A DNA stretch of 64,000 bases from Lachnospiraceae bacterium (GTDB lineage: Bacteria > Bacillota > Clostridia > Lachnospirales > Lachnospiraceae): assembly GCA_022845895.1 (NCBI GenBank), contig AP025573.1:2886501-2950500 (forward strand), in the 5' to 3' direction. The translations under genes and the position numbers were made by a program. This document shows positions 8,547 to 27,975 of the stretch, one piece after another; position 1 is the first letter of the stretch, and every line of letters starts with the position of its first letter. The notes beneath the pieces are model-generated. The model saw nothing but the letters and a program-made list of their open reading frames with translations, had not been told where the DNA came from and made no database searches.

Positions 8547-8585
8547 CAGTCCGCAGATATCCGCAGACTGTTACATCCTGCGGAT
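8547..8585 (-). promoter_or_regulatory. Alternative hairpins between riboswitch and guaD (expression platform)
   Basis: Two mutually exclusive hairpins follow the aptamer. One pairs ATCCGCAG with CTGCGGAT (8559-8585). The other is a near-palindrome (8547-8570) that uses the 3' arm of the first and pairs fully only with G-U wobbles. Neither is followed by a T run, so a simple terminator is not evident; the platform may work on translation or by another route. Confidence 0.45.
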
Positions 8586-8586
8586 T

Positions 8587-8648
8587 CTTATAGACAACTA
8601 TTTACGGTAGTTGGTAGAAACGTTCAACCGATTATGAACCTATATAAG
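8587..8648 (-). ncRNA. Purine riboswitch aptamer (guanine class)
   Basis: The minus strand reads as a purine aptamer: P1 CTTATA/TATAAG, J2/3 GTTTCTACC, L3 with CCGTAAAT, and J3/1 ending GTCTATAAG. The base equivalent to position 74 is C, which pairs with guanine or xanthine-like purines; adenine switches have U. P2 is short (about 5 bp). It lies between a promoter and guaD-xdhABC, a catabolic operon, so ligand binding would be expected to turn expression on. Confidence 0.92.
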
Positions 8649-8677
8649 TCTCCATGTTTTTTGTTGTTTCTTATTTT

Positions 8678-24006: not shown

Positions 24007-24157
24007 TTAAATTCCGCCAATAATAACCACCAAAAAGAACTTTATTTTATTATGCACATTTGACAAAGAGATTATCAGAATAGTTTTTCTTTTTAAAATG
24101 TTCTATACTGTTATTCAGTGGCATTACTATATGGCTCGAATCTGGAGAATAGATGAT

Positions 24158-24475
24158 ATGAGATATGTAAAAATTATATTAGAAAATATTCTGATAACAT
24201 GGGCATATGCGTTCCTGACCGTTCCCCATAAGATAATAAATGGCGGCGTGACGAGCTTTTCCATGATCGCTGCCTCGTTCCTCCACTCGGACACCGCATT
24301 GATTGCCAACGTTATCACGCTCCTGCTGCTTGCATCCCGCAGGATAAGGGCTACGGAAAGGATTCTCCGCCTCTCCCGCTTACACCTGCGCATCTCCCAC
24401 CCGGCTCCCCGCCCGCTATCTACTTCACTTGACAAGGGCGAGTGCGGCTGTGTGACGTTACTGGCCAGCGGATGA
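24158..24475 (+). pseudogene. Truncated YitT-family membrane protein running into repeat copy A
   Basis: From ATG 24158 about 58-60 codons read like the N-terminus of a YitT/DUF161 membrane protein (MRYVKIILENILITWAYAF, then IINGGVTSFSMIA). The frame then enters the GC-rich repeat near 24335-24360 and stops at 24475. Intact family members are about 280 residues, so at least three quarters are missing and the tail is repeat-derived. GGAG lies 10 nt before the start. Probably a remnant left by insertion or deletion at the repeat. Confidence 0.55.
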
Positions 24476-24540
24476 ACGCTGGCTGCGTCAGTTAAGTGAT
24501 AAAATATCGCAAGCTTAATGTGAATAACACAAAGAGCAGA
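24360..24540 (-). repeat. GC-rich repeat element, copy A (truncated)
   Basis: The reverse complement matches copy C closely, for example GTAGATAGCGGGCGGGGAG, then GAGATGCGCAGGTGTAAGCG and GGCGGAGAATCC, and the 5' flank (CATCCGCTGGCCAG, ATATTTTATCA). The match stops at GGAGAATCC near 24360, so the inner hairpin and closing arm are missing. The break joins the YitT remnant. Confidence 0.8.
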
Positions 24541-24633
24541 TGAATGATAAGAGTTTTGAAAGTCCAGATGAATCAGGCTGGCGAATATGTTCGTTGTGAA
24601 TCAATTACAGCGAGGCGAGCACGCCGTTGCTGC

Positions 24634-24699
24634 AAGAAGAGCCGGAACCAGGCAGGGAATGTCATCCCAACATCCCCGTACCTGATACCGGCTCTTCTT
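24634..24699. repeat. Long imperfect hairpin between repeat copies A and B
   Basis: Outer arms AAGAAGAGCCGG and CCGGCTCTTCTT (12 bp perfect) with further inner pairing (CAGG/CCTG, GGGAATG/CATCCC). There is no long T run on either side, so it may be a decayed terminator or a separate small repeat. Nothing else supportable was seen between 24541 and 24744. Confidence 0.5.
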
Positions 24700-24744
24700 C
24701 ATTACGATTACTTTCAACTAAAGTTATCAGCCTGCTTAGCCCCT

Positions 24745-25027
24745 TTTCACTATGCTGACACAGCCAAATCCCTTCCATCAGCCAATCGTGTTACACAGCC
24801 GCCCCCGCCCATGCCAGTAAAGTAGATAGCCGATGGGGAGGTATGGGACAGATGCGCAGGTGTAAGCGGAAGGGACGGAGAATCCTCACCAGATTCCTTG
24901 GCTTGTGGGGTGAGAGCCGCTATCGGCGAACACCCCACAGGCTTAGGAATCTGTGTGATAGTCGTAGTTCCCGGACGCATCGGAGCATCTGCCCCATACC
25001 TCCCCAGCGGCGTCCACTTCACTAAAC
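24745..25027 (+). repeat. GC-rich repeat element, copy B
   Basis: Same element as copy C, same orientation. Outer stem GGGGAGGTATGGG/CCCATACCTCCCC (13 bp) extended by CAGATGC/GCATCTG; inner stem AGATTCCT/AGGAATCT with GTGGGGTG/CACCCCAC, capped by GCCG-CTAT-CGGC. Unpaired conserved blocks AGATGCGCAGGTGTAAGCG, ACGGAGAATCC and GCATCGGAGCA. Stem bases differ from copy C but pairing is kept. Confidence 0.85.
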
Positions 25028-25233
25028 CCCCATTGAACAAAACGGCGATGTGTGATATCATATGAACACAATTCAAACATTCTGATTTTCTGATTTCATC
25101 TACGGCAGATCGCCGTACCTATCCGATGTTTGTAACAAATCTTTTATGCGAAGGAGGGATGCCTATGGGGGCTGTTCTTTTGTTTTCCGTCTGTTAACCG
25201 TGGATAAAGTATGATAAAATGAAGGAGAACCAT

Positions 25234-25983
25234 ATGAACAAAAGACAAAAGCTGATACCATTAAACAAACTGAACCTTACGGACCGTTTCCTCTTCGAGG
25301 AAGTGATGGAGGACCCCCTGGCCCAACAGGAGGCGCTCGGCATCATCCTGGGCAGGGATGTCCCGCTCCTTACCCAGAACGAGGCGGAGAAGGAGCTTCG
25401 GATTTCGCCGGAGGCCCGCTCCGTCCGCCTGGACATCTCCCTGCTGGAGCCCGGGATTCCGGACTACAGCCAGCTGAACGAGTCCTATCTCATCATGATC
25501 ACGCCCTTCGACCTGTTCGGCTGCGGGAAGTACCGGTACACCTTCCGGGCCGTGTGCGAGGAAGAGCCGGGATGCATCTTAGAAGACGGGGCGACCCGGA
25601 TCTTCCTGAACACCCGTGGAGCGAATGACGATAAGGTCCCACAGGAGCTGGCGGAGTTCCTGCACTACGTGGAGCATACGACGGACGAGGCGGCAGAACA
25701 TGCCGGGAGCGAACGCATCCGCCGCATCCACGACCGGGTCCGGAAGGTACGCAATAGTGAAGAAGTCGGGGTGAAATATATGCAGGCATGGGAAGAGAAA
25801 TATTATGAGAAAGAAGAGGCAAGACACGAAGGGGTGAAAGAAGGGCGTAAAGAAGCGCTTACAGATTTACTAAAGAAGAAGCTTGAAAAAGGGAAGTCTG
25901 TCGAGGAAATCGCCGAGGCTTTGGAAGAGTCCGAAGAGACGATTCGTGGGCTTATGAAAGAACTGGGGGTTCAAGTAATATAG
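25234..25983 (+). CDS. Rpn/PD-(D/E)XK nuclease-family transposase-like protein, internally deleted
   Basis: 249 residues; start at ATG 25234 (MNKRQKLIPLNKLNLTDRFLF), 6 nt after AAGGAG. The N-terminus, the SLLEPGIPDY block, FDLFGCGKYRYTF, FLNTRGANDD, EVGVKYMQAWEEKYYEKEEAR and the charged C-terminal tail all match the Lachnospiraceae Rpn/PDDEXK_2 group as I know it. Between SVRLD and ISLLEPG the segment that normally carries the second catalytic motif (E-x-Q/K, about 35-40 residues) is absent, so nuclease activity is doubtful although the frame is open. Flanked on each side by a direct copy of the GC-rich repeat. A decayed member is the best reading. Confidence 0.72.
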   Translation: MNKRQKLIPLNKLNLTDRFLFEEVMEDPLAQQEALGIILGRDVPLLTQNEAEKELRISPEARSVRLDISLLEPGIPDYSQLNESYLIMITPFDLFGCGKYRYTFRAVCEEEPGCILEDGATRIFLNTRGANDDKVPQELAEFLHYVEHTTDEAAEHAGSERIRRIHDRVRKVRNSEEVGVKYMQAWEEKYYEKEEARHEGVKEGRKEALTDLLKKKLEKGKSVEEIAEALEESEETIRGLMKELGVQVI

Positions 25984-26027
25984 ACGCCGCTGGAGACGTA
26001 TGTTAATGCTCAACATCGACCAATTTG

Positions 26028-26341
26028 TTCTTTGCTGCACATATTAAACTTGTCATATTTTATCATTCATCTCGCGCAGTCAGCGGCCATCCGCTGGCCA
26101 GCAACGCCTCACGACCGCCCTCGCCCTTGTTAGTGAAGTAGATAGCGGGCGGGGAGCCGGGTGGAAGATGCGCAGGTGCAAGCGTAAGAGGCGGAGAATC
26201 CGTCCCGGAATCCTTGGTTTGCGGAAGAGGAGCTGCTATCAGCGACTCTGCCGCAAAGTTAGGATTCCGTGGACTAGTCGAAGCCTCGGTCGCATCGGAG
26301 CAGATGCCACCCGGCTCCCTGACCGCAGCCACTTTACTACC
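26028..26341 (+). repeat. GC-rich repeat element, copy C (most complete)
   Basis: About 314 bp. 5' flank with an ATATTTTATCA block and hairpin CAGCGG/CCGCTG; closing arms TAGTGAAGT/ACTTTACTA; outer stem GGGAGCCGGGTGG/CCACCCGGCTCCC; inner stem GGAATCCT/AGGATTCC plus TTTGCGG/CCGCAAA; cap GCTG-CTAT-CAGC. It ends 8 nt from the stop codon of the second ptsI. It fills most of the gap 25984-26349; no gene is supportable there. Confidence 0.85.
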
Positions 26342-26349
26342 CCCCCCAA

Positions 26350-27975
26350 TTACTGGATATCCCGGATCTTCTTCCTGAGTCCAAGTACCTGAGGTGGTGT
26401 CACGGATAATTCGTCTATGCCTATCTGGATAAAGAACTCTGTCAGCGTCAGGTCTGCCGCCAGATCTCCGCAGATACTGATTCTTTTCCCCTCCAGGTGT
26501 ACATTGTTCGTCACGATACGGATCATCTTGAGCAGTGCGGGATGATGCGGGTCATAATATCTGCTGATTCTGCCGTTCTGCCGGTCCGCCGCCATCGTAT
26601 ACTGTGACAGGTCGTTCGTCCCTATGCTGAAGAAGTCCACCTCTCTGGCGAGTTCCCCGCTAATCATTACAGCGGCCGGAGTCTCTATCATTACGCCAAC
26701 CTGTATATCTTCATCAAAAGCTGTCTTTTCATCTTTGAGCTCGCGCTTGGCCGCTTCCAGCATCACCTTCGCGCTCTGCACCTCATCGAGCGATGTGATC
26801 ATCGGGAACATGATCGAAACATTGCCAAATACCGAGGCGCGCAGTATAGCCCGCAGCTGGGTCTTGAACATCTCGTCCTTATCGAGGGAGATGCGGATTC
26901 CGCGGTATCCCATCGCCGGGTTGCTCTCCTCTCCGAAATCAAGACATTCTGCCTGCTTGTCGCCGCCCAGGTCAGCCGTCCTTATGACCACACGCTTCGC
27001 TCCCATGGCCTCGGCTGCCAGCTTATATGTCTGGAACTGCTGCTCTTCGGTGGGCAGCTTATGCCTGTTCTCCATATAGAGGAACTCGCTCCGGAACAGG
27101 CCGATACCGCCGGCGTCGCTGCGCAGTACATTTTCTATGTCTTCCCGTTTGCCGATATTGGCACAGATGTCAATCCTCTGCCCGCTCTGGGTGACGTTAT
27201 CCTTTCCCTTGAGACGCTCCAGATTCTTCACCTGTGACACATTGCTTTCTTTCTTCTGCTTCATCCTCGTTAGCGTCGTGTAATCCGGCTCTATGTATAT
27301 CTTTCCCTCAAAACCGTCGATGATGATGGTCTTGCCGTCATAATCCTTCTTCAGCGCCTCTCCAAGTCCGATGACAGAAGGAATCCCCATCGTTCTTGCC
27401 AGCACTGCGGTGTGTGAGTTGATTGCGCCGTATCTCGTGACAAACCCGAGAATCTTCGTCTTATCAAGCTGCACCGCTTCGCTCGGATATATTTCATTAG
27501 ACGCCAGCACGATTGGTTCATCCGTAAGCAGCTTGTCTTTCCAGCTTCTGGACAGAATACGCACGAGCCTGCTTGACACGTCTCGGATATCCGTGTCATG
27601 CCCCTGGACATAATTCTTCCCCTCCTGCACGCACGTCTCAATAAACCGCTCCGAAGCAGACTGTACCGCATACTCCGCGTTCAGCTTCTGTTCCAGTATC
27701 ACACCGGTAATCGCGTCAATATAATCCTGATCCTCCAGGATCATCTGCTGCATCTCAAAAATGGCGGCATTCGCCTCCCCGACATCTTTAATGGAATCGG
27801 TATACAAGTCTTTCAGTTCCAGAAGGGCCTTCTCCCGCCCTTTCTGGAACCTCATGATCTCCTTTTCCACATCTTTGACATCAAACTTCTTGATCTCTTT
27901 TGTATCTCTCCTGTAAAACGACAGCCGTCCGATTGCGACGCCTTCCGAAACTTTCTTCCCTGTCAATGTAATCAT
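26350..27975 (-). CDS. ptsI: PEP-protein phosphotransferase (Enzyme I), second copy
   Basis: 541-residue paralogue of the fructose-operon Enzyme I, same domain order. Active H188 in INSHTAVLAR; GIGLFRSEFLYM, DLGGDKQAEC, MIETPAAV, FFSIGTNDLSQY and active-site Cys in ISICGDLAADL are all present, so it should be functional. No HPr gene is adjacent and its sequence has diverged widely from the other copy. It may be the general Enzyme I or serve another PTS or regulatory phospho-relay. Its 3' end abuts repeat copy C. Confidence 0.93.
   Translation of the reverse strand: MITLTGKKVSEGVAIGRLSFYRRDTKEIKKFDVKDVEKEIMRFQKGREKALLELKDLYTDSIKDVGEANAAIFEMQQMILEDQDYIDAITGVILEQKLNAEYAVQSASERFIETCVQEGKNYVQGHDTDIRDVSSRLVRILSRSWKDKLLTDEPIVLASNEIYPSEAVQLDKTKILGFVTRYGAINSHTAVLARTMGIPSVIGLGEALKKDYDGKTIIIDGFEGKIYIEPDYTTLTRMKQKKESNVSQVKNLERLKGKDNVTQSGQRIDICANIGKREDIENVLRSDAGGIGLFRSEFLYMENRHKLPTEEQQFQTYKLAAEAMGAKRVVIRTADLGGDKQAECLDFGEESNPAMGYRGIRISLDKDEMFKTQLRAILRASVFGNVSIMFPMITSLDEVQSAKVMLEAAKRELKDEKTAFDEDIQVGVMIETPAAVMISGELAREVDFFSIGTNDLSQYTMAADRQNGRISRYYDPHHPALLKMIRIVTNNVHLEGKRISICGDLAADLTLTEFFIQIGIDELSVTPPQVLGLRKKIRDIQ

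Follow-up and report, generated by a model that had tools for sequence, protein, structure and literature searches.

The repeated sequences found around an Rpn-family gene in the window, the whole stretch of 64,000 nucleotides analysed here, are best read as members of a family of very large repetitive extragenic palindromes, specific, by DNA similarity, to the genus of Extibacter muris and Dorea sp. D27. The elements lie at gene 3' ends, are strongly structured, exchange sequence between sites and are associated with Rpn genes. We favour, with slightly better than even confidence, the reading that they are an oversized REP/BIME-like family, homogenised through gene conversion, whose members form the ends of the flanking transcripts. 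In the following, G000 indicates the window's genome, G002 and G003 indicate E. muris DSM 28560 and Dorea sp. D27, and G001 a fourth genome of the genus.

The first-pass annotation had described three copies of a repeat at this locus. Repeats are indeed present there, with homology bounds at 24324-24422, 24822-25036 and 26138-26349, but the units are two composite elements: copies A and B are the inverted arms of composite 1, copy C is the remainder of composite 2, and shared spacer DNA surrounds the three arm homologies. Composite 1 (24324-25036) is formed by a C-type arm in reverse orientation, a spacer and a B-type arm in forward orientation. The C-type arm has lost its outer half: the remnant (24324..24422, minus strand) starts, by repeat homology, at 24324, where it is fused to a truncated yitT-like gene fragment (24098..24323, plus strand) matching only profile positions 2-58 of 205 of Pfam YitT_membrane. 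Its inner foot, read from the sequence at 24415-24422, is CTATCTAC (equivalent to GTAGATAG). The spacer (24423..24821, no strand), delimited by sequence and homology, contains a central hairpin, AAGAAGAGCCGG...CCGGCTCTTCTT, at 24634-24699. The B-type arm (24822..25036, plus strand), composed of a long stem plus an inner stem, is one of 30 B arms counted in the stretches fetched from this genome.

The Rpn-family nuclease ORF (25219..25983, plus strand; TIGR01784, 55.6 bits with a cut-off of 52.1) follows, and its last codons overlap the outer end of the B-type arm of composite 2 (25961..26002, minus strand; element query 829-789, 81% identity). The rest of this arm is deleted; the same outer end is also present at the counterpart site in E. 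muris. Remaining spacer DNA, recognised by repeat homology (26003..26137, no strand), leads to the C-type arm (26138..26349, plus strand), whose outer end abuts the stop codon (26350-26352) of a minus-strand ORF in the ORF list (26350-27975), which, from reading its sequence without a search, we take to be ptsI-like. The window also carries a purine riboswitch aptamer (8571-8667, minus strand, 51.6 bits).

The repeat, first described as a feature of the locus around the Rpn ORF, is present there but is distributed genome-wide: a search of the 4.16-Mb genome returned 81 matches for the B arm, a count in which the palindrome also matches its own reverse, and 55 for the C arm. Element DNA was found in 37 of the 38 fetched stretches of this genome, and the search for further copies that had been suggested at the outset yielded 26 near-full elements plus fragments. 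The near-full composites have different flanks and measure 777-845 bp when extrapolated to their ends, a few of which are damaged. Each is built of two inverted, branched hairpin arms of about 210-250 bp, separated by a spacer of about 340-400 bp, for a total of about 830 bp. A terminal repeat close to ATGKGGGTTTAAGTAAAGTGG is found at both element ends, and GTAG at the inner foot of both arms. No target-site duplication was apparent by eye in the flanks of these occupied sites.

The same family is found in G002 and G003. It was not found in 94 other relatives, where at most five candidates were scored per genome, so that weak relatives could be missed. A scan of a genome collection with the core pattern matched only E. 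muris and Dorea sp. D27, in 50 stretches, near relatives of the window's genome being perhaps excluded from that collection. The core pattern had no match in viral contigs, nor the B arm in plasmids or phages; a plasmid or phage origin was rejected, the whole element having produced just two chance-like 35-bp matches in the plasmid collection. A known RNA family was likewise rejected, as no Rfam 15 covariance model matched at its gathering score, in agreement with the initial failure to recognise a named family; at a loose threshold six weak matches to microRNA and lncRNA families were obtained, all far below their cut-offs. No earlier description of such elements in this bacterial group was found in a limited and partial literature search.

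The elements are non-coding, foldable, dispersed and extragenic, with many arms arranged as inverted pairs. In these respects, and in their placement at gene ends, they resemble REP, BIME and REPIN sequences, which are dispersed extragenic palindromes often found as inverted pairs (PMC3733652, accessible part). They differ from them in size, since a REP unit is 20-40 bp long, against arms of about 210-250 bp and a composite of about 830 bp. Like bcr1, ERIC, YPAL and other stem-loop repeats, they are folded, repeated and specific to a species or group (PMC2267715). Within the part of that paper that was available, 67 of the 92 listed families are 31-200 bp long and two exceed 1 kb, and neither a stop-to-stop placement nor an exchange between positions was found described.

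Of 36 gene 3' ends identified by a mechanical reading of ORFs around the 26 composites, 34 are no more than 25 bp away from the element. Twelve composites have a gene 3' end on both sides, 12 on one side and one, ambiguous, on none; the last is undetermined. The mechanical choice of ORFs includes an apparently spurious one, opposite a real gene, on the left of L022, ambiguous ones on the right of L030 and L053, and, on the left of L021, a case where a shorter ORF ends at the element. A convergent setting is thus found for 12 of the 26 copies. In the window, where a crude ORF call yields 53 gene adjacencies, it is found for 5, the others being tandem (44) or divergent (4). In many copies the ATGKGGGTTTAAGTAAAGTGG-like element end directly follows the stop codon, and in some it supplies it; either end of the element can face a gene 3' end. 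A comparable placement is described for REPs, which are found for the most part where genes are convergent or unidirectional; they abut ORF ends and at times supply the stop codon (PMC3733652, accessible part).

Gene conversion by itself does not account for the exact fit of the elements from stop to stop. Instead of an ordinary terminator hairpin, the structure may act as the end of the flanking transcripts, whether through termination, through insulation or by protecting the 3' end; of the steps we propose, this is the one for which the evidence is thinner. Such a role would explain the structural conservation, the abutment to stop codons and the long persistence of the elements. In the single window-family copy scanned, no terminator-like site was detected, so that a role in termination would need a mechanism other than that of a canonical intrinsic terminator.

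The ability to fold was evaluated by comparison with shuffled sequences. The B-type arm of composite 1 and the C-type arm of composite 2 gave z-scores of -7.65 and -6.50, with none of 100 shuffles folding as well, and a whole composite reached z -20 (20 shuffles). The long stem, inner stem and CTAT-type loop, as originally drawn, were recovered in both full arms (-131.9 and -142.3 kcal/mol), although the blocks that had been called unpaired and fixed are partly paired in the predicted fold.

Covariation was analysed on 97 arms from three genomes, kept out of 112 found after arms with less than 75% coverage had been dropped; the 15 removed lacked the GTAGATAG foot, were of odd length or were identical to others. 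The stem differences quoted in the first-pass annotation are real and compensatory: two-sided Watson-Crick changes are seen in 19 of the 44 pairs that both strands support, but in only 1-4 when partners are slid, and 6 structural pairs are found among the 30 strongest corrected mutual-information pairs, against 0.06 expected. This covariation arises mostly between three arm subfamilies, and so reflects few events. Within B arms, two-sided changes are found in 2 of 51 pairs, and 3 of the top 10 mutual-information pairs are structural; within C arms they are found in 11 of 49 pairs, almost all of them following a single 38:11 split, and the 30 strongest mutual-information pairs include no structural one. 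Selection on structure had been proposed from these changes: the structure is conserved, but covariation alone cannot separate selection on an RNA from palindrome correction or gene conversion, and compensatory changes can arise by correction of a DNA palindrome without any selection on structure.

On the outward strand, G-U exceeds A-C in 27 versus 17 columns when pairs found on both strands are considered, and in 46 versus 27 for the union of pairs, a bias that is suggestive of RNA, although weakly. Together with the covarying stems and the very stable folds, it would fit a structured non-coding RNA, transcribed from the spacer outward and acting in trans or as a riboregulator. We regard such an RNA as improbable: the strand bias is weak, either element end may face a gene 3' end, no Rfam family matches at the gathering score, and the spacer of the single copy scanned has no promoter-like match, the two obtained there being within the left flank or at it.

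Twelve sites (L023, L024, L026, L032, L033, L036, L037, L042, L043, L044, L053 and L057) were compared with their counterparts in G002 and/or G003. The flanks match at 84-100%, short stray matches aside, and element DNA or a remnant of it is present at all 12. Position is thus inherited. Sequence is not: orthologous arms behave like random ones, with a mean fractional rank of 0.456 and the top rank in 3 of 21 cases against 1.8 expected, the G002 and G003 pools consisting of fetched arms rather than of all copies, and one of the two L026 C arms having been dropped. The orthologous arm was never closer than the best copy of the home genome, in a comparison that favours the larger pool.

Most elements, moreover, appear to be mosaics, whose arms and spacer show little shared ancestry. 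When the four of the 26 composites with damaged ends were left out (L046, L028_1, L025 and L040), the C and B arms of the same copy had the same nearest neighbour in 4 of 22 cases, and Mantel correlations were 0.165 for C and B arms (p 0.11), 0.146 for C arm and spacer (p 0.18) and 0.22 for spacer and B arm (p 0.09). Two pairs are nevertheless closely alike: L043 and L045 over their whole length (97.9, 99.7 and 94.9% for the three parts), L053 and L055 over most or all of theirs, a pattern expected from duplication of the unit as a whole. At sites L036 and L053 the composite is flipped in place in G002 relative to G000, as judged from arm positions. The G002 counterparts of L023 and L024 (L163 and L165) are remnants of 65 and 162 bp in which both outer ends are kept and the inside is deleted.

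The combination of inherited sites, orthologous copies no more alike than random ones, and mosaic structure points to ectopic gene conversion between elements, by which copies would overwrite each other. This is the simplest account; the alternative is repeated replacement or re-insertion at the same site. Recent transposition, considered earlier, was dropped because no examined counterpart in G002 or G003 was empty.

That REP-type palindromes serve the 3' ends of mRNAs, and that gene conversion shapes their evolution, are suspicions of long standing.

For REPs, gene conversion was proposed in a 1988 review, known here by its title in the reference list of PMC3733652. What these long copies reveal is that a site can be passed on while the sequence inside it is swapped with that of other sites. 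This makes it possible to test directly, in gut bacteria that can be cultivated, both a transcript-end function and conversion within the genome.

The first-pass annotation had also proposed the hairpin as a substrate for mobilisation, which finds no support in the 12 sites, all of which already carry element DNA in G002 or G003. A related possibility is a non-autonomous, MITE- or REPIN-like element, moved in trans by a Y1 (RAYT-type) transposase and still re-inserting at gene ends. The inverted-arm architecture, the GTAG inner feet, the dispersed copies and the two copy pairs alike over their whole length are what it would predict; Y1 transposase matches occur in all four genus genomes, and one Y1 lineage, seen in G000, G002 and G003 and not in G001, has the same distribution as the element. 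We nevertheless consider it unlikely. Three Y1 lineages carry short palindromes of their own; element-like DNA adjoins none of 12 Y1 loci, where only 22-28-bp matches with E 0.014 or worse were obtained; no empty site was seen among the 12 examined; and the arms of a copy mostly differ in their nearest relatives. Because of the shared distribution of one Y1 lineage, a RAYT-driven REPIN was at first judged a strong candidate; it was weakened once the examined Y1 lineages proved to have their own palindromes. In this respect the family differs from REPIN/RAYT systems, as the element flanks no RAYT-like gene examined in this genus. Neither type of palindrome adjoins L253, a fourth Y1 gene, intact and found in G000 only, which is a possible mobiliser.

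Among the Y1 (RAYT-like) genes, the one at L250 (2864-3863, G000), as well as L256 and L259, is flanked by inverted repeats of 79-84 nt with a GGGACGTAACC hairpin. At L250 the repeat starts just after a stop codon, and the motif recurs next to element L045. The palindromes of two further Y1 lineages are different ones.

In G001 both flanks were found close together at eight element sites. Three of them (L033, L042 and L044) have a short hairpin instead of the element, terminator-like in the scan at L042 and L044 and not at L033; four (L026, L036, L043 and L057) have a different large palindrome, and L023 has other DNA. G001 had initially appeared to be without the element, the search with the window family having given short central-hairpin matches only; the different palindromic family was then recognised there. 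A related copy of the G001-type palindrome, L212, folds at z -26.9 (20 shuffles). The family has its central hairpin in common with that of the window, the hairpin of composite 1 resembling it in a comparison which includes the window copy (G000:2911123-2911170). Among 200 genomes of the bacterial family, with at most two candidates scored per genome, so that weak relatives may have escaped notice, G001-type sequences were found in G001, weakly in G000 and, over 30 bp, in one other.

A different palindrome family thus occupies some of the same gene ends in a sister species. A broader reading, which we regard as possible though rather unlikely, is that these are site-locked, self-homogenising 3'-end modules: each species would keep its own palindrome at largely shared gene ends through copy-into-copy conversion, possibly stimulated by the action of Rpn or of palindrome-cutting nucleases on the hairpins, and families would turn over in place, as between the G000 and G001 types.

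The association with Rpn genes recurs in three genomes. Profile searches gave 13 Rpn-family matches in four genomes, 11 in G000, G002 and G003 and two in G001. In all 11 of the former, the Rpn match is followed by element DNA at a distance of 0-110 bp, and in seven an element also ends 165-187 bp upstream of the match. These figures would suit a transposon encoding Rpn, with the elements as its ends and solo elements as its remnants. We hold such a transposon to be very improbable, because the elements far outnumber Rpn genes, the element facing Rpn may present either end, the two Rpn genes of G001 show a weak trace of a window-family element at best, and a small Rpn fragment of G000, L034, has none beside it. 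The window Rpn also lacks catalytic residues, and published rpn genes are reported, in the accessible part of PMC10327210, to have no identifiable terminal repeats and to be likely hitchhikers. Here, by contrast, element DNA adjoins the gene in three species, the rider gene being an Rpn-family member whose intact copy has a C-terminal short-repeat tail.

Under gene conversion between elements, the reading preferred above, element homology would also allow a site to gain or lose element-bounded gene cassettes, such as Rpn in this case. At the window site E. muris (L110) has one composite and no Rpn, whereas this genome has element, Rpn and element. At L023 the latter arrangement is found in G003, a single element in G000 and the 65-bp remnant in G002; at L056 the Rpn gene is common to G000 and G003 (L222), with a flank identity of 92%. 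The elements would thereby provide Rpn nuclease genes with a concrete carrier.

In L110 the composite meets the 3' end of a yitT-like piece with its B end and the ptsI-like stop with its C end. The piece matches positions 114-181 of the 205-position profile with E 1.1e-4, which does not reach the curated cut-off, and its last codons enter the element. The 5' part of the yitT-like gene is kept in the window (24098-24323) and the 3' part in E. muris (L110 2900-3900); the gene underwent different deletions beside the element in the two genomes.

The window Rpn ORF, recognised by its family profile above the cut-off, had no Pfam match at 0.001; the intact copy at L056 matches PF12784. In the window Rpn, L049 and G003 L225, a common in-frame deletion between TGGACATCT direct repeats has removed the VYNTEMQ stretch, and with it the catalytic E-x-Q motif. 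We take its EMQ, from reading rather than alignment, to be equivalent to E82/Q84 of RpnA.

In RpnA, the changes D11A, D63A, E82A and Q84K abolished all three phenotypes tested (PMC5350276, accessible part). As the window protein has lost the stretch, it is probably not an active nuclease. The three still-open ORFs in two genomes may be either dead nucleases that are kept or the products of a recurrent deletion.

Identical 1157-bp stretches of a transposase-like ORF are found near two Rpn-element loci (L056 3845-5001 and L049 2745-3901), and what appears by eye to be the start of the same ORF adjoins element L031.
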